From Paragemmobacter ruber (GTDB lineage: Bacteria > Pseudomonadota > Alphaproteobacteria > Rhodobacterales > Rhodobacteraceae): a DNA stretch of 64,000 nucleotides. The notes below the pieces were generated by a model. The model was not told where the DNA came from. It did no database searches and saw nothing but the letters and a program-made list of their open reading frames with translations. Each line of letters opens with the position of its first letter. The stretch's first letter is position 1. A program made the position numbers and the translations under genes. Below, in pieces: positions 6,303 to 54,839 of this stretch. Location of the stretch: the NCBI RefSeq assembly GCF_009908315.1, contig NZ_JAAATW010000002.1:620001-684000 (forward strand), written 5' to 3'.

Positions 6303-7049
6303 TCAGGGGACGGTGGGTTTCGGTGCCTGAAAGGACTTGCCCGGCTTGGCGATGGCGGTGAAGTCGGGATAGCCCGCCTGCGCATAGGCGCGGGCATCGG
6401 TCAGCTGGAAGCTGCTGGCGAAGCGGTCCATCCCGAAGGCATCAAGCGTGAGCGGCACATAGCGGGCGAGGATGGCGTCGTAGTTCTGGCGCAGCACGGG
6501 ATTGCCGGGAGAGAGGTTGGAGATCAGGACCAGCCCGGTGGACCGGCAGTCGAGCACCGTGATCCTGAGGTCGGGGCGGTATTCCTGCAGGATCGGGATC
6601 AGTTTCCAGACATCGCCCGTCCATGCGCCCTTTGGCAGGTTGTCCAGATCGCGCGTTGTCATGCCCAGATTGGAGGGGCAGCAGTCATGCAGCGCGATGA
6701 CGCCCTTTTCGTGGCTGTGCGCCTCGGCGTTCATGAAATCGCGCAGCAGGAATTCGAACAGGTGCATGCCGTCCAGAAAGCTGAAGGACAGCTGGATGTT
6801 CATGGCGCGCAGGAACCCCGAGGCGAAGAAATCGTCGCTGGTCTGCTGGAAGACGTGCAGCGCGGGCTTGGCGCCGATGATGTTGCCTTCGGTGCGGAAA
6901 TAGGGATCGACGGCGATGGTCCGGCTGCGGACGGGGCCGAAGGTGCGCCCGCTGCGGCAGCCCACCTCCATGTACCAGTCGAAGATGCAGGATCGGTGCA
7001 GGCCTTCGAAGAAACGCGTGTAATGCTGGCCCGCGGCGACGTTGAACAT
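6303..7049 (-). CDS. Class I SAM-dependent methyltransferase-like protein
   Basis: A 248-residue soluble protein. The part YMEVGCRSGRTFGPV resembles motif I of class I methyltransferases (E-x-G-x-x-x-G). A later aspartate-containing strand (TIAVDPYF) sits at the motif II position, and 'FLDGMHLFEFLLRDF' followed by GVIALHDC matches the Methyltransf_24-like subgroup. Related proteins are common in Rhodobacteraceae, often near glycan genes, but nothing nearby suggests a substrate. It is a single-gene unit facing the ABC operon. The fold is likely; the activity is unproven. Confidence 0.6.
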   Translation of the reverse strand: MFNVAAGQHYTRFFEGLHRSCIFDWYMEVGCRSGRTFGPVRSRTIAVDPYFRTEGNIIGAKPALHVFQQTSDDFFASGFLRAMNIQLSFSFLDGMHLFEFLLRDFMNAEAHSHEKGVIALHDCCPSNLGMTTRDLDNLPKGAWTGDVWKLIPILQEYRPDLRITVLDCRSTGLVLISNLSPGNPVLRQNYDAILARYVPLTLDAFGMDRFASSFQLTDARAYAQAGYPDFTAIAKPGKSFQAPKPTVP

Positions 7050-45606: not shown

Positions 45607-46530
45607 ATGGAAGGCGATCTGGGCTGGTGGGCGGTTCCTCTTGCCGTGCTGGGCGGTGCGATCCGGGTGTCAACGCCGATCCTGTTCGTCTCGCTGGGCG
45701 AGACACTGACAGAGCGGTCGGGGCGGATCAATCTGGGGCTTGAGGGGACGCTCGTTTTCGGGGCGATGGCGGGATATGCCACCGCGGTGATGACGGGGAA
45801 CCCCTGGGCGGGGGTTCTGGTTGCGGCGCTGGCGGGGGCGGTGTTCGGGCTGGTGCATGGGCTGATCTGTTCGATGGCGAAGGTGAACGACATCGCCATC
45901 GGCATCGCCATGATGCTGCTGGGGACGGGGCTTGCCTTCTATTTCGGCAAGCCCTTCATCCAGCCTGCGGCGCCCGATCTGCCGTCAATCCCCTTTGGCT
46001 GGTGGTCGGATGTGCCGCAGGTGCAGGCGGCGTTGAATGTGAACGTGCTGTTTCTTGCGGGCATCGCAGCGGCGCTGGTGCTGCATTGGGGGTTGCGGGC
46101 CACCAAGCCGGGGCTGATCCTGCGGGTGGTGGGCGACAGCACCGATGCGGCCCGTGCGATGGGGCTGCGGCCTGCCGTGATCCGCACGATGGCGACAGCG
46201 CTGGGCGGGGCCTTTGCGGGGGTGGGCGGGGCCTATCTGTCGCTGTTCTATCCCGGCAGCTGGAATGAGGGCATTTCCAGCGGGCAGGGTCTGATGGCCG
46301 TGGCGCTGGTGATCTTTGCACGCTGGCAACCGCTGAACTGTTTCTGGGCGGCGCTGCTGTTTGGCGGGGCGGGGGCCTTGGGTCCGGCGCTGCAATCGGT
46401 GGGGGTGACGCAGGGCTACTACCTCTTTTACGCCGCGCCTTATGTGCTGACGCTTGGCGTGCTGATCGCCACCTCGTCGCCGAACCGCGCGCTTGCGGGC
46501 GCGCCGGGTGAACTTTCCATAACGAAATGA
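45607..46530 (+). CDS. BMP-type ABC transporter permease 2
   Basis: A 307-residue permease of the same family. The block [26 protein letters not shown] is the conserved start, and the cytoplasmic loop reads [32 protein letters not shown]. It starts 4 bases after permease 1. The earlier in-frame start at 45568 lies inside that gene and is not used. Confidence 0.88.
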
Positions 46531-46538
46531 GGGGCAGG

Positions 46539-47216
46539 ATGACCACGATCAACGCCAATCCTTATGCCTGGCCATACAATGGCGATCTGCGGCCCGAGAA
46601 CACCGCGCTCATCATCATCGACATGCAGACCGATTTCTGCGGCCAGGGCGGCTATGTGGACATGATGGGCTATGACCTATCGATGACACAGGCGCCCATT
46701 GAACCCATCCGCGCGGTGCTTGGCGCGATGCGGGCCAAGGGCTACCACATCATCCACACGCGCGAAGGGCACCGGCCCGATCTGGCCGACCTGCCGCCGA
46801 ACAAGCGCTGGCGCAGCCAGCAGATCGGGGCGGGGATCGGGGATGCGGGGCCGTGCGGAAAGATCCTGATCCGGGGGGAACCGGGGTGGGACATCATCCC
46901 CGCGCTCTACCCCCTGCCGGGCGAGGCGATCATCGACAAGCCGGGAAAGGGATCGTTTTGCGCGACCGATCTGGAACTGATCCTGCGCACGCGGGGCATC
47001 GAGAACCTGATCTTGACCGGCATCACCACGGATGTCTGCGTGTCCACCACAATGCGCGAGGCGAACGACCGGGGCTTTGAATGTCTGATCCTGTCGGATT
47101 GCTGCGGGGCGACGGACGCGGGCAACCATGCGGCGGCGCTGAAAATGGTCACCATGCAGGGCGGCGTCTTCGGCGCGGTCAGCGACAGCGCCACCCTGAT
47201 CGGGGCGCTGCCATGA
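46539..47216 (+). CDS. biuH: Biuret hydrolase (isochorismatase-like cysteine hydrolase)
   Basis: Hydrolyses biuret to allophanate and ammonia; 225 residues. The catalytic triad Asp28 (IIIDMQTDF), Lys134 ([10 protein letters not shown]) and Cys167 (TTDVCVST) lies at exactly the spacing of Asp36, Lys142 and Cys175 in Rhizobium biuret hydrolase. The flanking sequence ([39 protein letters not shown]) also matches that enzyme closely from memory. It sits between the BMP permeases and their ATPase, with AtzF further down, forming a complete biuret route. Confidence 0.88.
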
Positions 47217-48763
47217 GGCCGCCCGTCACAGGGATCGGCGCGGATCCTTTGCCCGCAGGCGCGCTGGAGGTGGAAACGGTGGGCATGACCATGCGCTTTG
47301 GCAGTTTCACCGCGCTCGACGATGTGTCGATCCGCATCGCCCCGGGCAGTTTCCATGCCCTGCTGGGGGAAAACGGGGCGGGAAAGTCCACGCTGGTGAA
47401 ATGCATCATGGGCTTTTACCACGCGACGGCGGGGCAATTGCTCGTGGCACGGCGCGAGGCCGAGATCGGTGATCCGCGCGACGCGCGGGCCTTGGGGATG
47501 GGGATGGTGTATCAGCATTTCACGCTGGTCCCGTCCCTGACCGTGGCCGAAAACCTTGTGATCAGCCGCGCCGATGCGCCGGTGGTGATCGACTGGGCGC
47601 AGGAACGCGCGGGGCTGGAGGCGTTCATGTCTGCCATGCCCTTTCGGGTGCCGCTCGACCAGCCGGTGGCGCGGCTGGCGGCGGGCGAGAAGCAGAAGCT
47701 CGAGATCCTCAAGCAGCTGTATCTGGGAAGCCGTTTCCTCATCCTTGACGAACCCACCTCGGTGCTGACGCCGGATGAGGCGGACGAGGTGCTGGGCCAT
47801 GTGCGCGGTCTGTGTCAGGCGGGCGAGATTTCGGTCCTGATGATCACCCACAAGTTCCGCGAGGTCACGGCCTTTGCGGATGAGGTGTCAGTGCTGCGGC
47901 GCGGGCGTCTGGTGGGGCAGGGCCGGGTGGCCGATCTGACGCACGACCAGATGGCCGCGATGATGATCGGCGAGGAAAAGGCGCTGCGCCCGATGGACCG
48001 GCAGGGCACGCGCGGGGCGCCGGTGCTGGAACTGCGCGGCGTCCGGGCGGTGGATCGGTCAGGGCTGAAAGAGATCAGCATCGACGCGCTGACCGTCCAT
48101 GCGGGCGAGATCGCAGGAATTGCGGGCATATCGGGCAATGGGCAGATGGAACTGATGGAGGTGCTGACCGGCCAGCGCGCGCTGCGCGCGGGCGAGGTGC
48201 GTGTGGCGGGCGAAGCCTATGGCGCGACGCGGCAAGAGGCGCAGGCCCATGCCGTGCGCTACCTGCCCGAAGAGCCGCTGCGCAATGCCTGCGCCCCCCG
48301 GATGAGCGTGATCGAGAACATCGCCTTCCGGTCGTTCGACCGCAACGGCAAGGGGCCGCGCTTCTGGCTGTCGGCGGCCGAGATGCGGGCCCGCGGGCGC
48401 GATCTGATCGCGGCCTTCAAGGTCAAGGCCGCCGATCCCGAAGGCCCGATCGCGGCCTTGTCGGGCGGCAATGTGCAGCGCGCGGTGCTGGCGCGCGAAC
48501 TGACGGGCGCGGTGCGTCTGCTGGTCATCTCGAACCCCTGTTTCGGGCTGGATTTCGCCGCCGTCGCGGATATCCGCGCGCGGATCGTGGCGGCGCGCAA
48601 TGCCGGCGCGGCGGTGCTGTTGATGAGCGAAGACCTGGACGAGGTGCTGGAACTGTCCGACCGGGTCCTCGTGATGTCGGAAGGGCGGATCACCTATGAG
48701 GTGCCCGCCGCCGAGGCGCGGGTGGCTGAGATCGGCCATCACATGGGGGGACATGCGGCATGA
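47213..48763 (+). CDS. BMP-type ABC transporter ATP-binding protein (two ATPase domains)
   Basis: A 516-residue duplicated ATPase. The first half has Walker [10 protein letters not shown], the signature variant [12 protein letters not shown] and Walker [11 protein letters not shown]. The second half has a degenerate Walker A ([14 protein letters not shown], no GKT) and a good signature [15 protein letters not shown]. Walker B ends SNPCFGLD, lacking the DEP acids. So only the first half should bind and hydrolyse ATP normally, as in other ribose/BMP-type duplicated ATPases. The start overlaps the biuH stop (ATGA). Confidence 0.88.
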
Positions 48764-49452
48764 ACGAAATGCGCGGATTGGGGATGCGGCAGATCGCGGC
48801 GGCGCGGCCCTTCGCCTTTGGTTTCGATCCGGCGACCACGGCGTTGATCGTGATCGACATGCAGCGCGATTTTGTCGAACCGGGCGGGTTCGGCGCAAGT
48901 CTGGGCAATGACGTGACGCGCCTGCGGGCGATCATTCCCGCCGTGGCAGCGCTGATTGCCGGGGCGCGGGCGGCGGGCGTGCCGGTGATCCACACGCGGG
49001 AATGTCACCGCCCCGATCTGTCCGACCTGCCGCCTGCCAAGCGCGACCGTGGCGCGCCCGAGCTGCGGATCGGCGATGCGGGCCCCATGGGGCGCATCCT
49101 GATTGCCGGCGAGCCGGGCGCCGATATCGTGCCAGAACTCTATCCCGTGGCGGGGGAACTGGTGATCGACAAGCCGGGAAAGGGCGCCTTCTACGCCACC
49201 GGCCTGTCGGCCCATCTGGTGCGGATGGGAACACGCAGCCTGATCCTTGCCGGGGTGACGACCGAGGTCTGCGTCCAGACCACCATGCGCGAGGCGAATG
49301 ATCGCGGGTTTGACTGTCTGCTGGCCGAGGATGCGACCGACAGCTACTTTCCCGCCTTCAAAACCGCCACGCTTGAGATGATCCGCGCGCAAGGCGCCAT
49401 CGTCGGCTGGACAGCCACCGTGGCCGAGATCGTCGAGGCCTTCCATGCCTGA
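48760..49452 (+). CDS. Second isochorismatase-like cysteine hydrolase (BiuH paralogue, perhaps triuret hydrolase)
   Basis: A 230-residue paralogue of BiuH with an intact triad: Asp33 (VIDMQRDF), Lys138 ([10 protein letters not shown]) and Cys171 (TTEVCVQT). The substrate-facing N-terminal part differs ([16 protein letters not shown] in place of the [12 protein letters not shown] region of BiuH), so another substrate is likely. Triuret hydrolase TrtA belongs to this family and would feed biuret to BiuH; ureidoacrylate- or carbamoyl-type amides are alternatives. It overlaps the ATPase gene by 4 bases and the cupin gene by 8. Confidence 0.78.
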
Positions 49453-49789
49453 CCGCGCAGAAGAGCCCGTGGCCTTTGCCGCGCTGCTGACGGGCTGGCG
49501 CGCGCGCACCTTCAAGCCCTTCCGCGACGGCGTGGAGATATCGGTGCTGCGCGAAGGCGCGCCGGGTGTGGCGCTCTTGCGTTATGCGCCCGGTGCGGGG
49601 GTGCCACGCCACCGCCACCCGGGGATGGAGACGATCCTCGTTCTCGAAGGGGTGCAGAGCGACGAACGCGGCGATTATCCGGCTGGATCGCTGATCCTGA
49701 ACCCCGAAGGGACCGAACATTCGGTCTGGTCAGCATCGGGTTGCACCGTGCTGATCCAGTGGAACCGGCCTGTGGAATTCATGACCTGA
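49445..49789 (+). CDS. Small cupin protein (ChrR-like)
   Basis: A 114-residue single cupin. Motif 1 is [20 protein letters not shown] (two His and a Glu, the metal ligands) and motif 2 is [10 protein letters not shown] with the third His. Small ChrR-like cupins act as metal-binding sensors or accessory isomerases; none is known to be required for biuret use. Its tight overlap with the second hydrolase suggests a shared role, perhaps a regulatory or pre-processing step. Confidence 0.75.
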
Positions 49790-49797
49790 GAAAGACG

Positions 49798-51609
49798 ATG
49801 GACAAGACAAGCCTGACCGATCTGCCGTTCGACATCGACCGGCTGCACGCCGCCTATGCGACCGGGCTATCACCCGCCGCCGTGATGGCCGAGGTCCATG
49901 CCCGTATCGCGGCGGCCGGGGACCGCGCGATCTTTTTGCATCTGCGCGATCCCGCCGCCACGGCGGACGAGGCCGCGTCCCTGCTGCCTTTCGATCCGGT
50001 GGCCTATCCGCTCTGGGGGATTCCCTTCGCGGTCAAGGACAATATCGACGTGGGCGATGCGCCCACCACGGCCGCCTGCCCGGACTTCGCCTATCTGGCG
50101 CAGGCGGATGCCTTTGTGGTGGCGCGGTTGCGCGCGGCAGGGGCGATCTGGATCGGCAAGACCAATCTGGATCAATTTGCGACCGGGCTGGTGGGCGTGC
50201 GGTCACCCTATGGCGTGCCGCGCAATGCGCTGGACCCCGCCATCGTGCCGGGCGGTTCGTCCAGCGGGTCGGCGGTGGCGGTGGCGCGCGGGCTGGTCAG
50301 CTTTGCGCTCGGCACCGATACGGCCGGATCGGGCCGCGTTCCGGCGGCGCTGAACAACATCGTGGGGCTGAAGCCGTCGCTCGGTGCGCTGTCGGCCACA
50401 GGTGTTGTTCCCGCCTGCCGGACGCTCGACACGATCTCGATCTTCGGCCTGACCGTCGCCGATGCGTGGCGCGCCTACCGTGTGGCCTGCGCGCCCGACG
50501 CTGATGATCCGTGGTCGCGCCCGATGCCCGCCCCGGCCCTGTCCGCCCCGCCGCCGGGCCAGCGCATCGGCGTGCCGGATGCCGCCAGCATCGAGTTCTT
50601 CGGCGACACGGCACAGGCCGCCGCCTTCGGCACCGCCCGCGCCATGTTGCAGGCCATGGGCGCCACAGTGGTGGAGGTCGATTTCACCCCCTTCTACGCC
50701 GTGGCGCAGATGCTCTATGACGGCGCGTGGGTGGCCGAACGCATGGCCGCGGTGGAACCCCTGTTCCGGGCGCGGCCCGGGGCCTTTCACCCGGTGACGG
50801 CGCGCATCATCGGCGGGGCGGACCGGCTGTCGGCGGCGGATGCCTTCCGTGGCATCTATCGGCTTGCGGCGCTGCGGCGGCAGGCGGTGGCGGCGATGGC
50901 TGGCCTTGACTTGCTGGCGGTGCCGACGATCCCCACCTTCTATTCCTTGGCCGATCTGGAGGCCGATCCCATCGGCCCCAACAGCCGCCTTGGGACCTAT
51001 ACGAACTTTGTCAATCTGCTGGACATGTGCGGTCTGGCCGTGCCGACCGGCCCGCGTGGCGACGGGCGGCCGGGAAGCATCACGCTCTTGGCCCGCCCGG
51101 GCGAAGACGCCCGTCTGGCCGCGCTGGGCGCGGTGGTGCAGGCGCAGTCGGGCGCAGCTCTGGGGGCCACGGGTTGGGCGCTTCCCGCCGCGCCCGCGCC
51201 AGCCCCCGCCGCCCTGCCGCAGGAAATGGAACTGGTGCTGGTGGGCGCGCATATGTCGGGCCTGCCGCTGAACAGCCAGATCACGGGGCTGGGCGGGCGC
51301 TTCCTGCGGCGCACCACCACCGCGCCGGTCTACCGCCTGTTCCGCCTGCCCGGATCGCCGCCCGCGCGCCCGGGCCTTGTGCGCGCCGAAACCGGCGCGG
51401 CCATCGACGTGGAGGTCTGGGCGCTGCCCATGGCGCAGGTGGGGGCCTTTCTGGCGCAGATCCCCTCGCCCCTTGGCCTTGGGCGGGTGGACCTGACAGA
51501 TGGCCGCAGCGCGGTGGGCTTTCTGGCCGAAGCCCTGGCGGTCACAGGGGCAGAGGAGATCACGCATCACGGGGGGTGGCGGGCCTATCTCGCGGCGCAG
51601 CCGGCGTGA
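49798..51609 (+). CDS. atzF: Allophanate hydrolase (AtzF type)
   Basis: Hydrolyses allophanate to ammonia and CO2, the last step of biuret breakdown; 603 residues. The amidase-signature catalytic set Lys80 (FAVKDNID), cis-Ser154 (PGGSSSGSA) and nucleophile Ser178 (TDTAGSGR) keeps the spacing of Lys91, Ser165 and Ser189 in Pseudomonas AtzF. The C-terminal 150 residues (from MELVLVGAHMSGLPLNSQI) are the AtzF C-domain. The start at ATG 49798 comes 8 bases after the cupin stop. Last gene of the operon. Confidence 0.92.
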   Translation: MDKTSLTDLPFDIDRLHAAYATGLSPAAVMAEVHARIAAAGDRAIFLHLRDPAATADEAASLLPFDPVAYPLWGIPFAVKDNIDVGDAPTTAACPDFAYLAQADAFVVARLRAAGAIWIGKTNLDQFATGLVGVRSPYGVPRNALDPAIVPGGSSSGSAVAVARGLVSFALGTDTAGSGRVPAALNNIVGLKPSLGALSATGVVPACRTLDTISIFGLTVADAWRAYRVACAPDADDPWSRPMPAPALSAPPPGQRIGVPDAASIEFFGDTAQAAAFGTARAMLQAMGATVVEVDFTPFYAVAQMLYDGAWVAERMAAVEPLFRARPGAFHPVTARIIGGADRLSAADAFRGIYRLAALRRQAVAAMAGLDLLAVPTIPTFYSLADLEADPIGPNSRLGTYTNFVNLLDMCGLAVPTGPRGDGRPGSITLLARPGEDARLAALGAVVQAQSGAALGATGWALPAAPAPAPAALPQEMELVLVGAHMSGLPLNSQITGLGGRFLRRTTTAPVYRLFRLPGSPPARPGLVRAETGAAIDVEVWALPMAQVGAFLAQIPSPLGLGRVDLTDGRSAVGFLAEALAVTGAEEITHHGGWRAYLAAQPA

Positions 51610-51710
51610 CGCTGGCCTGCGCCGCCCCCACTGCGGCCCATGTCGAGTTTGCGACATGACCTGTCGTTCCAAAGGGGATTCGTTCCCGGGCGACCCCCTA
51701 CATTCGCCCG

Positions 51711-51884
51711 GCAAGGTGCCGCCCCGACAGGCGGAGAATTGGGAAGCCGGTGCAAGACCGGCGCTGCCCCCGCAACGGTAACGGGAGAGGGCGCGACATC
51801 AGGCCACTGGGGGGGAGGAGCCCCTTGGGAAGGCGTCGCGTCCGGGCCGAAAGGCCGCTCCCCCAGCCCGGAAACCAGCCTTGC
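51711..51884 (+). ncRNA. Cobalamin riboswitch
   Basis: The closing stem GCAAGG (51711-51716) pairs with CCTTGC (51879-51884). Between them lie the conserved core GGGAAGCCGGTGCAAGACCGG, then GCTGCCCCCGCAACGGTAA, a GCCACTG segment, and the B12 box CAGCCCGGAAACCAGCCTT. The expression platform reaches to 52016: CTGTC (51961-51965) can pair with GACAG (52006-52010) just before the ribosome binding site, around an inner CGTGC/GCACG hairpin, so translation control is plausible. Confidence 0.92.
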
Positions 51885-52021
51885 ACCGATACGTCGAACC
51901 GCGGTGGGCGGTGGGGCGATGCGTTGCGTCGGGCCTGCATGTCGCCGCGCGCATTTCCCCCTGTCTGGCCGCATGTCAGGAACAAGACCGTGCGGGAAGG
52001 CACGGGACAGCGAGGGTGATG

Positions 52022-53260
52022 ATGCTGAGCCACTCCCAGATTGCCGCCGAACTGGCCGCGCGCCGCAAGAACTTTTCCCTCTCGCGCGCGCTTTACGCCG
52101 ATCCGGCCGTCTATCAGGCCGATCTCGAACAGATCTGGTATCGCGAATGGCTGTTCGCGCTGCCCTCGGCCGCGTTGCAGAAGACGGGCGATTATCAGAC
52201 CGTGCAGGTGGGCGCCTATCCGGTGATCGTGGTCAAGGGCGCCGACGGGCGCATCCGCGCCTTCCACAACGTCTGCCGCCACCGCGGCCAGCGGCTGTGC
52301 TCCAAGACCATGGGCAACACGCCCAAACTCGTCTGCCCCTATCACCAGTGGACCTATGAGCTGGATGGCAAGCTTCTTTATGCCCGCGACATGGGCGAGG
52401 ATTTCGATGCCGCCAAGTTCGGGCTGAAGCGGGTGCATTGCGTCGATCTGGGCGGGGTCGTCTACATCTGTCTGGCCGAGGTGCCGCCCCCCGTCGCCGA
52501 TCTGGCGCGCACCGCGGCGGGCTATCTGGCGCCTTCGGGTCTGTCGGATGCCAAGGTGGCCTTCACCTCGACCATCGTGGAAAACGGCAACTGGAAGCTG
52601 GTGATCGAGAACAACCGCGAATGTTATCACTGCGGCGGTTCGCACCCGTCGCTCTGCCGCACCTTCTCGGATAATCCCAAGATCGGCGCGATGGATGGCC
52701 CCCATTCGGCCAGCCCCGAAATCCTTGCCCATTGGGAACGCTGCGAAGCCGCAGGCCTGCCCTCGCGCTTTGTCCATGCCCCCGATTTCCAGTGGCGGCT
52801 CGCGCGCATCCCGCTTTTGAACAACGCCGAAAGCTATACGCTGTCGACCAAGGCAGCCGTGGCGCGGCGGATGGGGCGGATGCCCTTCAACGATGCGGGC
52901 AGCCTGCTTATGTATCACTATCCCAACACGTGGAACCACTTCCTGGGCGATCACGCGATCACCTTCCGCGTCCTGCCCGTCAGCCCGACCGAGACCGAGG
53001 TGACGACGACATGGCTCGTCCACAAGGACGCGGTGGAAGGTGTGGACTACGATCTGAAAACCCTGACCGAGGTCTGGATCGCCACCAATGACGAGGACCG
53101 TCAGGTGGTGGAGGAAAACCAGAAGGGCATCCTGTCGCCCGCCTATGAACCCGGCCCCTATTCGACCATTCAGGAAGAAGGCGTGATCCAGTTCGTGGAT
53201 TGGTATTGCGGCGTGATGGCCGGGCGCGTTGCGCCGGGTCCGGCTCTGGCGGCGGAGTAA
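52022..53260 (+). CDS. Rieske-type oxygenase alpha subunit, glycine betaine demethylase (GbcA) type
   Basis: A 412-residue Rieske/mononuclear-iron oxygenase. The [2Fe-2S] ligands are Cys85-Arg-His87 and Cys105-Pro-Tyr-His108. The mononuclear iron region reads WKLVIENNRECYHCGGSHPSL, where Asn-Asn-Arg-Glu precedes the two iron histidines as in GbcA and stachydrine demethylase. The product would be dimethylglycine plus formaldehyde. ATG 52022 sits behind CGAGGG; ATG 52019 is one codon earlier. The gene is directly controlled by the cobalamin riboswitch and followed after 3 bases by its reductase. Confidence 0.8.
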   Translation: MLSHSQIAAELAARRKNFSLSRALYADPAVYQADLEQIWYREWLFALPSAALQKTGDYQTVQVGAYPVIVVKGADGRIRAFHNVCRHRGQRLCSKTMGNTPKLVCPYHQWTYELDGKLLYARDMGEDFDAAKFGLKRVHCVDLGGVVYICLAEVPPPVADLARTAAGYLAPSGLSDAKVAFTSTIVENGNWKLVIENNRECYHCGGSHPSLCRTFSDNPKIGAMDGPHSASPEILAHWERCEAAGLPSRFVHAPDFQWRLARIPLLNNAESYTLSTKAAVARRMGRMPFNDAGSLLMYHYPNTWNHFLGDHAITFRVLPVSPTETEVTTTWLVHKDAVEGVDYDLKTLTEVWIATNDEDRQVVEENQKGILSPAYEPGPYSTIQEEGVIQFVDWYCGVMAGRVAPGPALAAE

Positions 53261-53263
53261 GCC

Positions 53264-54334
53264 ATGGGTCAGATGAACTGGACGGCCCGGCCCTGGACGG
53301 ATGCAGAGCTTCTGGAATGTGCCATGGTGGTGCCGGATGTGTCCGACACTGCGACCTTCACCTTCCGCGCGCCGTCGGGCGCGTGGTTCGACTATCAGCC
53401 GGGCCAGTTCCTGACGCTGGATCTGCCGGTGCCGGGCGGCAATATCCAGCGCACCTACACGATCAGTTCCAGCCCCTCGCGCCCCCTGTCGATCAGCGTC
53501 ACGGTCAAGGCGCAGAAGGACAGCATCGGCACGCGCTGGATGCTGGATCACCTCAAGCCCGGGATGCGGATCAAGGCCTATGGTCCGTCGGGCATCTTCT
53601 CCTTCCATCGCCACCCGGCGAAGAAATACCTCTTCATCTCGGCAGGCTCCGGCATCACCCCCATGATGTCGATGACGACATGGGCCTGGGATTCGGGCGA
53701 GATGCCCGACATCACCTTCGTCCACGCCGCCCGCCGCCCGTCCGAGATCATCTTCCGCGAAAGGCTGGAGCAATTCGCCAACCGCGTGCCGGGCCTGCAA
53801 TTGCGTTTTGTGGTCGAGGAACCCGATCCCTTCCGCGCCTGGCCCGGCTATACCGGACGGCTCAGCCAGATCATGCTGGGCCTGATGGCCCCCGACTATC
53901 TGGAGCGCGAGGTGTTCTGCTGCGGCCCCGAACCCTTCATGCAGGGGGTGCGCGACATGCTGGTGTCGCTGGGCTATGAGATGGCGCACTACCATCAGGA
54001 AAGCTTCGGCGCCCCCGTGCGGACCGAGGCCGAGGCGCCCGTGATCTCAGACGTGGTCCCCGATGCCGGGACCGGCGCAGTCATCACCTTTGCCAGCAGC
54101 GGCATCACCGCGCCTTGTGCCGAAACCGATACGGTGCTGGCGGTGGCCAAGCGGTCGGGGCTGAACATCCCCTCGGGCTGCACCTTCGGGCTGTGCGGCA
54201 CCTGCAAGGTGAAAAAGACCGAAGGCGATGTGCACATGGTTCATAACGGCGGGATCAGCGATGACGACATCGCCGCAGGCTACATCCTCGCCTGCTGTTC
54301 CCATCCCATGGGCAAGGTCACCGTCGCCGTCTGA
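53264..54334 (+). CDS. Hybrid flavin/[2Fe-2S] reductase of the Rieske oxygenase (GbcB type)
   Basis: A 356-residue electron-transfer partner. The FNR part has an FMN/FAD motif (RTYTISSSPS) and an NAD(P) motif (YLFISAGSGITPMMSM, later FCCGPEPFM). The C-terminal plant-type ferredoxin domain carries the cysteines C-T-F-G-L-C-G-T-C (residues about 305-315) and a final CCSHP. It supplies electrons from NADH to the oxygenase encoded just upstream. A terminator follows. Confidence 0.83.
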   Translation: MGQMNWTARPWTDAELLECAMVVPDVSDTATFTFRAPSGAWFDYQPGQFLTLDLPVPGGNIQRTYTISSSPSRPLSISVTVKAQKDSIGTRWMLDHLKPGMRIKAYGPSGIFSFHRHPAKKYLFISAGSGITPMMSMTTWAWDSGEMPDITFVHAARRPSEIIFRERLEQFANRVPGLQLRFVVEEPDPFRAWPGYTGRLSQIMLGLMAPDYLEREVFCCGPEPFMQGVRDMLVSLGYEMAHYHQESFGAPVRTEAEAPVISDVVPDAGTGAVITFASSGITAPCAETDTVLAVAKRSGLNIPSGCTFGLCGTCKVKKTEGDVHMVHNGGISDDDIAAGYILACCSHPMGKVTVAV

Positions 54335-54385: not shown

Positions 54386-54754
54386 TCAGAAATGCGATTT
54401 CGGCTCGTCCGGCTTGCCCGCCGCGATGGCCAGGATCCCGCCCACGATGCAAAAGCCGATGGGAAACATCGTGAACACGCCAAAGCCGAAAGAGAAATAC
54501 ATCAACCCGCTGGCCACCAGCATCAGCACACCCCCCACCAGCGCGCGGATCTTGGCCATGGCGGCCCCCGCAATCGCCAGCAGCGGGGCGATGAAACTGG
54601 CAAAGCGGATCAGGGCGGGGTTGTCGAATTCGCCGAAGATCTCGCCCAGTTCGGCATGCTCCTGCACCAGTTCGGTATAGCCGAACCCGAAGAACCCCAC
54701 GAGCATCGCGATCAACCCCCCGATGATCCCGAGCACCATAGCCGCGTTGCGCAT
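54386..54754 (-). CDS. Small four-segment membrane protein (DUF4064-like)
   Basis: A 122-residue protein. Four hydrophobic segments are visible, including MVLGIIGGLIAMLVGFFGFGY at the N-terminus and MFPIGFCIVGGILAIAAG near the end, with a short loop TELVQEHAELGEIFGEFDNP. This pattern resembles DUF4064 proteins. Function unknown. ATG 54754 begins the first hydrophobic helix directly; the upstream in-frame extension to 54814 is not convincing. Confidence 0.6.
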   Translation of the reverse strand: MRNAAMVLGIIGGLIAMLVGFFGFGYTELVQEHAELGEIFGEFDNPALIRFASFIAPLLAIAGAAMAKIRALVGGVLMLVASGLMYFSFGFGVFTMFPIGFCIVGGILAIAAGKPDEPKSHF

Positions 54755-54839
54755 CCTGTTTCCTCTGCTCGCCTGCCGCCCCGGCACATAAGCCGCTCTG
54801 GCACCTGCCAGCAAGTCTTGGCGGCGCGGCCCGCCCGAT

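Follow-up and report, generated by a model that had tools for sequence, protein, structure and literature searches.

Glycine betaine is a major marine osmolyte and nutrient, and the metE and nrd genes are examples of B12-independent isozymes under cobalamin riboswitches. Such isozymes are named as a regulated category in the available part of PMC3766115, which catalogues cobalamin regulons and includes 15 Rhodobacterales genomes. According to the excerpted text of PMC12478193 (2025), B12-dependent demethylation of glycine betaine represents a large and newly recognised cobalamin demand in such bacteria; in Ruegeria pomeroyi, mutants in mtgC and mtgD could neither make methionine nor grow on betaine, and the corrinoid protein is encoded next to a DUF1638 gene.

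Our analysis concerns a stretch of 64,000 nucleotides from the genome of Paragemmobacter ruber (Rhodobacteraceae), hereafter the window. A sequence-only reading of this DNA had placed a cobalamin riboswitch in front of a betaine-type Rieske oxygenase and its reductase, and had proposed that cells replete with B12 use a corrinoid methyltransferase for betaine methyl groups while starved cells switch to the oxygen-dependent route. It had also regarded the regulated class as unusual; given the isozyme category of PMC3766115, as far as that text is available, the class is less odd than claimed. No description of a link between a cobalamin riboswitch and a Rieske or betaine oxygenase was found in titles and abstract beginnings of the open-licence literature, among the matches listed. 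The words 'Rieske', 'oxygenase' and 'betaine' do not occur in the available main text of PMC3766115, an unremarked listing in its tables being possible, and the sole mention of 'riboswitch' in the text at hand of PMC12478193 is a reference title on the glycine riboswitch. The principle of B12 control over B12-independent isozymes is known; the Rieske target and the riboswitch subtype appear to be new to the open-licence literature. We consider the pair of riboswitch and oxygenase real and conserved and the predicted physiological switch likely. We hold it to be fairly probable that cobalamin represses an O2-dependent demethylase, which would stand in for a corrinoid route, or take load off it, when cobalamin is scarce.

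The riboswitch and its two-gene operon

The riboswitch is real: cmscan matches RF00174 end to end on the forward strand (positions 1-189 of the 189 in the model) with a score of 99.8 bits, the gathering threshold being 31.5, and an E value of 9.5e-24, and the element begins 14 bases before position 51711, where the earlier reading had put its start (Table 1). Between the stop codon of an allophanate hydrolase gene (51609) and the start of the aptamer lie 87 bases, and about 120 bases separate the aptamer's end from the Rieske start codon. Rfam predicts seven cobalamin riboswitches in the genome of 3.96 Mb. The other six adjoin B12- or cobalt-related frames, named by eye as cobW/cobN-like, cobalt-transport-like, BtuC-like permease, two bluB-like and one cbtA-like frames; by the same naming, the riboswitch of the window is the only one that precedes another kind of gene.

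The Rieske and reductase genes are separated by three bases, and the next likely gene (54386-54814) lies on the opposite strand; hence both genes should form one operon under the riboswitch. Both domain sets were found by Pfam, in agreement with the earlier naming of the regulated genes. Directly 5' of the riboswitch and on the same strand, positions 46527-51609 hold genes for biuret and allophanate degradation: among the NCBIfam models, BiuH scores 419.9 bits, above its cut-off, the allophanate hydrolase exceeds its own cut-off, and a second isochorismatase-type hydrolase stays below that of BiuH. It is possible that transcription from these genes runs on into the riboswitch leader.

Table 1. 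Features of the riboswitch-oxygenase locus in window positions, and loci of a small protein found behind cobalamin riboswitches in relatives.
Feature	Position	Strand	Basis
Cobalamin riboswitch aptamer RF00174, Rieske-linked subtype	51697-51897	+	cmscan 99.8 bits, letter signature
Subtype signature GAGAATTGGGAA...CTGCCCCCGCAACGGT	51734-51779 (= C2:671734-671779)	+	pattern search
Hairpin ACCGC-GGTGG-GCGGT, directly 3' of aptamer	51898-51912	+	possible P13/L13 pairing with loop L5
Hairpin CCGTGC-GGGAAG-GCACGG, ending 4 nt 5' of ribosome-binding-like site	51988-52005	+	presumed role
Ribosome-binding-like site GCGAGGG	52010-52016	+	sequence
Rieske oxygenase, quaternary-ammonium demethylase type, Stc2-like	52022-53260 (start ATG 52019 or 52022)	+	homology, Pfam
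Cognate reductase, FAD, NAD and 2Fe-2S ferredoxin domains	53264-54334	+	Pfam, NCBIfam
Protein of about 95 residues in relatives	L189/L212, L190/L213, L200/L214, L203/L215, L053:7281-7583, L084 about 6680-6980		

The oxygenase carries the domains PF00355 (Rieske, 64.1 bits) and PF00848 (Ring_hydroxyl_A, 126.6 bits), both above their cut-offs. The best NCBIfam models are GbcA for the oxygenase and GbcB for the reductase; the oxygenase reaches 498.7 of the 670 bits set for NF058607 and the reductase 363.3 of the 500 bits set for NF058606, and the label GbcA was dropped because the score lies below the curated cut-off. The nearest solved chains are 4QUP, 3VCA and 3N0Q with near-equal scores of about 578 bits, followed by a carnitine monooxygenase at 110 bits. 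We take 4QUP and 3VCA to be the stachydrine demethylase Stc2 and 3N0Q to be a homologue from Ruegeria sp. TM1040. The alignment with Stc2 (578 bits over residues 7-409) retains the stretches CRHRG, CPYHQW, ECYHC..HP and NDEDR, which presumably hold the metal ligands. By homology the protein is probably a Rieske demethylase of the quaternary-ammonium type, and N-demethylation of a betaine is predicted. A reading as a glycine-betaine oxygenase proper is not supported by the GbcA and GbcB scores. Glycine betaine is the most likely substrate; proline betaine or a similar compound is possible. A role in B12 biosynthesis was considered and is not favoured: the oxygenase is a close homologue of Stc2, and a CobG-like frame adjoins the cobW/cobN frames (by eye).

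The leader between aptamer and gene bears on the mode of control. A search for terminator-like sites on the forward strand found none in this interval, which fits translational control, and we infer this mode for the operon. Within 50 nt after the aptamer core, 34 of the 44 riboswitch-bearing loci have a short hairpin whose loop is G-rich, in a few a different one; its absence from the other 10 we count against an exchange of demethylation routes. A hairpin of this kind occurs within 75 nt of the start of the Rieske match in 29 of 44 bearers vs 8 of 80 other loci. By analogy with the kissing-loop mechanism of a cobalamin riboswitch class (described in the excerpted text of PMC10653944), these G-rich loops may be pairing partners of L5, a C-rich loop. 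The whole leader folds no better than its shuffles (z -0.48), which likewise counts against the exchange.

Recurrence of the pair and the riboswitch subtype

Homologues of the oxygenase (E 1e-100 or better) occupy 51 loci in 49 of 248 genomes of the family. The Rfam scan covered every one of these loci (17 as short loci with flanks of 1.5 kb): a cobalamin riboswitch lies directly upstream in 20, each reaching the gathering score, and is absent in 31. An nhmmer profile, which is blind to very different riboswitches, agrees with Rfam on these loci. In a second set of 80 named loci the profile finds the riboswitch in 28; 16 of these reach the Rfam gathering score, four come from genomes whose sampled loci are already Rfam-positive, and the remaining eight are positive by profile only. 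Twenty of the 80 were run through Rfam (16 positive, 4 negative), and since the profile was built from Rfam-found riboswitches including the 16 named positives, agreement there is by construction. The named bearers include Rubellimicrobium thermophilum, Rhodobacter capsulatus SP108, Cypionkella, Ruegeria, Leisingera, Shimia marina, Sulfitobacter mediterraneus, Phaeobacter and Marivivens, and in other families Hoeflea (now Parahoeflea) alexandrii (Rhizobiaceae) and Roseibium (Stappiaceae). In a sample of 385 genomes of the class, two more genomes from other families bear the pair (L216 and L220, Rieske gene identified by eye). A survey of other genomes, one of the checks suggested beforehand, thus shows that the pair recurs. 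The match to the Rieske gene of Rubellimicrobium thermophilum (L111:3001-4241) has a length not divisible by three, owing to a frameshift or a sequencing error.

A tree of the Rieske proteins requires 7 or more changes of the riboswitch trait for the 51 rows and 12 or more for a set of 124 rows; the latter set was formed after L106, L107, L108, L116, L162 and L173 (duplicates of sampled genomes) and L147 had been dropped. The link has therefore persisted, arisen or disappeared several times over, and it is not confined to one recent clade. By profile, degenerate riboswitch remnants precede the Rieske gene in L072 of the 51 loci and in L120 and L169 of the 80, as if cobalamin control were being lost there.

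These remnants, which indicate that the element can decay, are the point in favour of taking the riboswitch for a chance neighbour or a functionless relic. We find this scarcely credible. By chance, 0.018 of the 51 loci should have a riboswitch on the same strand in the 400 nt upstream, and 20 have one, which rules out chance adjacency; and across 33 Rieske-linked sequences, 22 of 41 predicted pairs show double-sided changes with pairing kept, around an invariant core.

We compared 36 Rieske-linked riboswitches with 17 other cobalamin riboswitches from the P. ruber genome and from relatives in the set. CAACGGT occurs in 35 of 36 Rieske-linked sequences vs none of the others, 16 of which have an ACTGT or GCTGT form; CCGGA(A/T)ACC occurs in 36 of 36 vs 0 of 17, with CAG(G/A)AGACC in 16 of the others. 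ATTGGGAA and ACCAGCC likewise distinguish all 36 from all 17, the others being variable at these sites, with GACCTGCC in 12 of 17. On the Rfam structure, the changes look like compensation in P6 (U-A to G-C) and P3 (often A-U to U-A), along with a shift from AGA to AAA in the strand taken as J6/3. By these letters the Rieske-linked riboswitches form a distinct subtype. That J3/4 and J6/3 motifs bear on the form of cobalamin bound is discussed in the part of PMC11260477 at hand.

The signature GAGAATTGGGAAN{14,44}CTGCCCCCGCAACGGT occurs once each in 24 of the 248 family genomes (reversed control: 0), and these are exactly the 20 Rieske-linked genomes plus G044, G115, G138 and G141. In the latter four it precedes an unannotated protein of about 95 residues, located 3' of a uvrD-like helicase gene (by eye); G138 also has a riboswitch-free Rieske homologue elsewhere (L087). 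Among the 385 class genomes, the six hits are P. ruber itself, the two Rieske loci of other families (L216, L220) and three genomes of one genus, in which the signature stands before the frame of a TonB-dependent receptor, with cobW- and cobN-like frames on the opposite side (by eye). A Rieske gene follows 22 of the 29 distinct hits; hence the subtype is not exclusive to Rieske genes.

The small protein (with LGFLEW and a C-terminal RRGG..RR) lies behind a cobalamin riboswitch in six relatives, four of them with the Rieske-type subtype (Table 1), and the three copies searched against Pfam and NCBIfam gave no match. A combined reading would make the subtype a discrete regulatory class, in which the altered P3, P6 and J6/3 (AAA for AGA) tune the aptamer to methyl- or aquocobalamin, so that it reads the capacity for corrinoid methyl transfer and, together with the small protein of four relatives, switches quaternary-amine use between the corrinoid and the oxygen-dependent route. 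We regard this extended proposal as doubtful.

The loci with the TonB-dependent receptor also bear on the sign of control. The riboswitch might activate the operon with cobalamin, or sense another corrinoid form, and B12 would then favour production of the oxygenase. Activation has a precedent in one corrinoid riboswitch described in the available text of PMC10653944, which we count against repression. The arrangement of the three receptor loci fits a repressing B12-uptake switch (by eye), however, and this alternative seems to us quite improbable.

Candidate corrinoid methyltransferases, gene neighbourhoods and the proposed control logic

According to the repression model that we prefer, the cobalamin-bound riboswitch would hide the ribosome-binding site of the two-gene operon, whose product would be a Rieske enzyme that uses O2 and NAD(P)H to remove N-methyl groups from quaternary ammonium compounds. 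With ample cobalamin, methyl groups would pass from MtgB to MtgC and on to tetrahydrofolate. When cobalamin falls, translation would start and the oxygenase would take over, leaving the substrate usable; its use would spare the scarce corrinoid protein. The sparing idea comes from R. pomeroyi, in which a single corrinoid protein serves both betaine demethylation and methionine synthesis, according to the text at hand of PMC12478193.

The corrinoid betaine methyltransferase that this logic calls for has a candidate in the genome, which encodes five proteins of the MttB superfamily. The best of them (C3:342019-343518) shares 44% identity with 2QNE, a chain deposited as glycine betaine methyltransferase that we take to be MtgB of Desulfitobacterium (D.) hafniense. 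It scores 794.7 bits with PF06253 and 264.5 bits with TIGR02369, the model of the pyrrolysine TMA enzyme, below the cut-off of 525; it groups as an MttB member near glycine betaine methyltransferase, and this activity is predicted for it. The only PF02607 hit in the genome (C2:558234) is a free-standing MtgC-like corrinoid protein with its B12-binding domains, beside a DUF1638 gene; it remains under the NCBIfam cut-offs (NF047996, 200 vs 370 bits; NF047995, 171.3 vs 310 bits). As this single hit is MtgC-like, no classical MetH is seen in the genome, and the scarce corrinoid protein probably serves methionine synthesis as well.

At E 1e-165, 227 of the 248 family genomes encode the MtgB-like protein (some of the weakest matches may be paralogues); its presence alone therefore says little. 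All 20 riboswitch-bearing family genomes possess it, and none of the four family genomes with an oxygenase and without MtgB (G042, G046, G094, G226) bears a riboswitch at that oxygenase. The same holds for the named set: every riboswitch-bearing genome has MtgB, and the genomes without MtgB, most of them Paracoccus, show no riboswitch at the oxygenase. Absence of MtgB means no match at E 1e-165 and no match of at least 60% identity in follow-up searches, some genomes being drafts. Left out of the count by genome were L163, a draft whose oxygenase is near-identical to that of L073 (a genome with MtgB), and the second copies L142, L090 and L094. Among oxygenase genomes, 44 then have riboswitch and MtgB, none the riboswitch only, 55 MtgB only and 21 neither (Fisher p 2.8e-5); without 17 Paracoccus the counts are 44, 0, 52 and 7 (Fisher p 0.019), both p-values ignoring ancestry. 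Independent pairs chosen on the tree, which included one out-of-frame row (L111, long branch) and one doubtful MtgB absence, gave no significant association: most pairs show no difference, those differing in the second trait averaging 0.9 of 9 and 1.7 of 10, and none is reversed.

The association of riboswitch and MtgB is consistent with an exchange of routes and is not proof of it. The swap proposed by the sequence-only reading is genuinely supported by the five MttB proteins with their MtgB-like member, the MtgC-like protein by the DUF1638 gene and MtgB in 44 of 44 bearers; an association independent of ancestry is not supported. We count this null result against the exchange, together with the missed cut-offs for GbcA, GbcB and MtgC and the presence of MtgB in 55 of 76 riboswitch-free oxygenase genomes. 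One of these, L051 (Pseudotabrizicola formosa), belongs to the window's own clade and has MtgB and an oxygenase free of a riboswitch.

Gene neighbourhoods differ between the two kinds of loci. In flanks of about 4-6 kb, shorter at contig ends, and by cluster labels that we assigned ourselves, OYE-, DMGDH-, SoxB- or GbdR-like neighbours occur at 0 of 20 riboswitch-bearing vs 16 of 31 riboswitch-free loci (p 4.4e-5), and with the LysR family added at 0 of 20 vs 22 of 31 (p 1.7e-7). This contrast suggests two regulatory modes, substrate-inducible catabolic clusters on the one hand and stand-alone operons under cobalamin control on the other. In L066, a riboswitch-free oxygenase operon stands beside DMGDH-like and MttB-like genes, the latter named by eye.

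The OYE-type flavoprotein beside several riboswitch-free relatives is presumably an N-methylproline-type demethylase. Together with the near-equal scores of the two Stc2 chains and their homologue and the missed GbcA cut-off, it speaks for an oxygenase acting on a betaine that corrinoid enzymes do not use, such as proline betaine, cobalamin then being a signal for something else, e.g. a B12-poor niche. This is unlikely, in our view: the riboswitch occurs in oxygenase genomes only with MtgB, and five MttB-type proteins could cover several betaines.

In some relatives NrdHIEF or metH adjoin the operon, in part with cobalamin riboswitches of their own, yet riboswitch-bearing loci show no enrichment of them (4 of 20 vs 3 of 31 riboswitch-free loci, p 0.41), a further count against the exchange. 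A two-gene MetH, with the homocysteine domain apart from the pterin, B12 and activation domains, lies beside the operon in L053, L054, L059 and L084; Pfam and NCBIfam confirmed the split domains in L053. The split metH genes directly behind the operon and in the same direction in L053 and L054, and the shared use of MtgC and MtgD for methionine synthesis and betaine demethylation in R. pomeroyi (PMC12478193, in the available text), could mean that the oxygenase is a source of C1 units, or saves methyl-tetrahydrofolate, when methionine synthase stalls without B12, betaine being merely the source. GbcAB-type oxygenases, however, yield formaldehyde (same source and extent), which provides no methyl group for homocysteine, and with neighbours of this kind unenriched we judge such a role improbable.

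Comparison with described systems

Like the riboswitches of B12-independent isozymes, the riboswitch of the window precedes a gene whose product would be able to stand in for a B12-dependent enzyme. Unlike there, the stand-in is an O2-dependent Rieske demethylase whose chemistry is unrelated to the corrinoid route, and the step concerned is catabolic rather than part of methionine or deoxynucleotide synthesis. If the predicted switch is true, the supply of the vitamin determines by which route betaines are degraded and how much oxygen this takes; the switch is testable in cultivable bacteria such as Rhodobacter capsulatus, Ruegeria and Shimia.

With GbcAB of Pseudomonas and Chromohalobacter, the window pair shares the combination of oxygenase and reductase and the best NCBIfam models; it differs in scores below the curated cut-offs, and no GbdR-like regulator stands beside the 20 riboswitch-bearing loci. 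Homology to Stc2 of Sinorhizobium meliloti extends over the full length and includes the metal-site stretches, whereas the window oxygenase falls in a separate clade of the tree and is placed under a cobalamin riboswitch instead of in a catabolic cluster. The presumed B12-dependent counterpart is MtgBCD(E) of R. pomeroyi, described in the excerpted text of PMC12478193; its enzyme class differs from that of the window oxygenase, and MtgB-like, MtgC-like and DUF1638 genes are present in this genome too. The same excerpts mention bacteria with GbcAB but without MtgBCDE, whereas here both kinds of enzyme co-occur in most oxygenase genomes.
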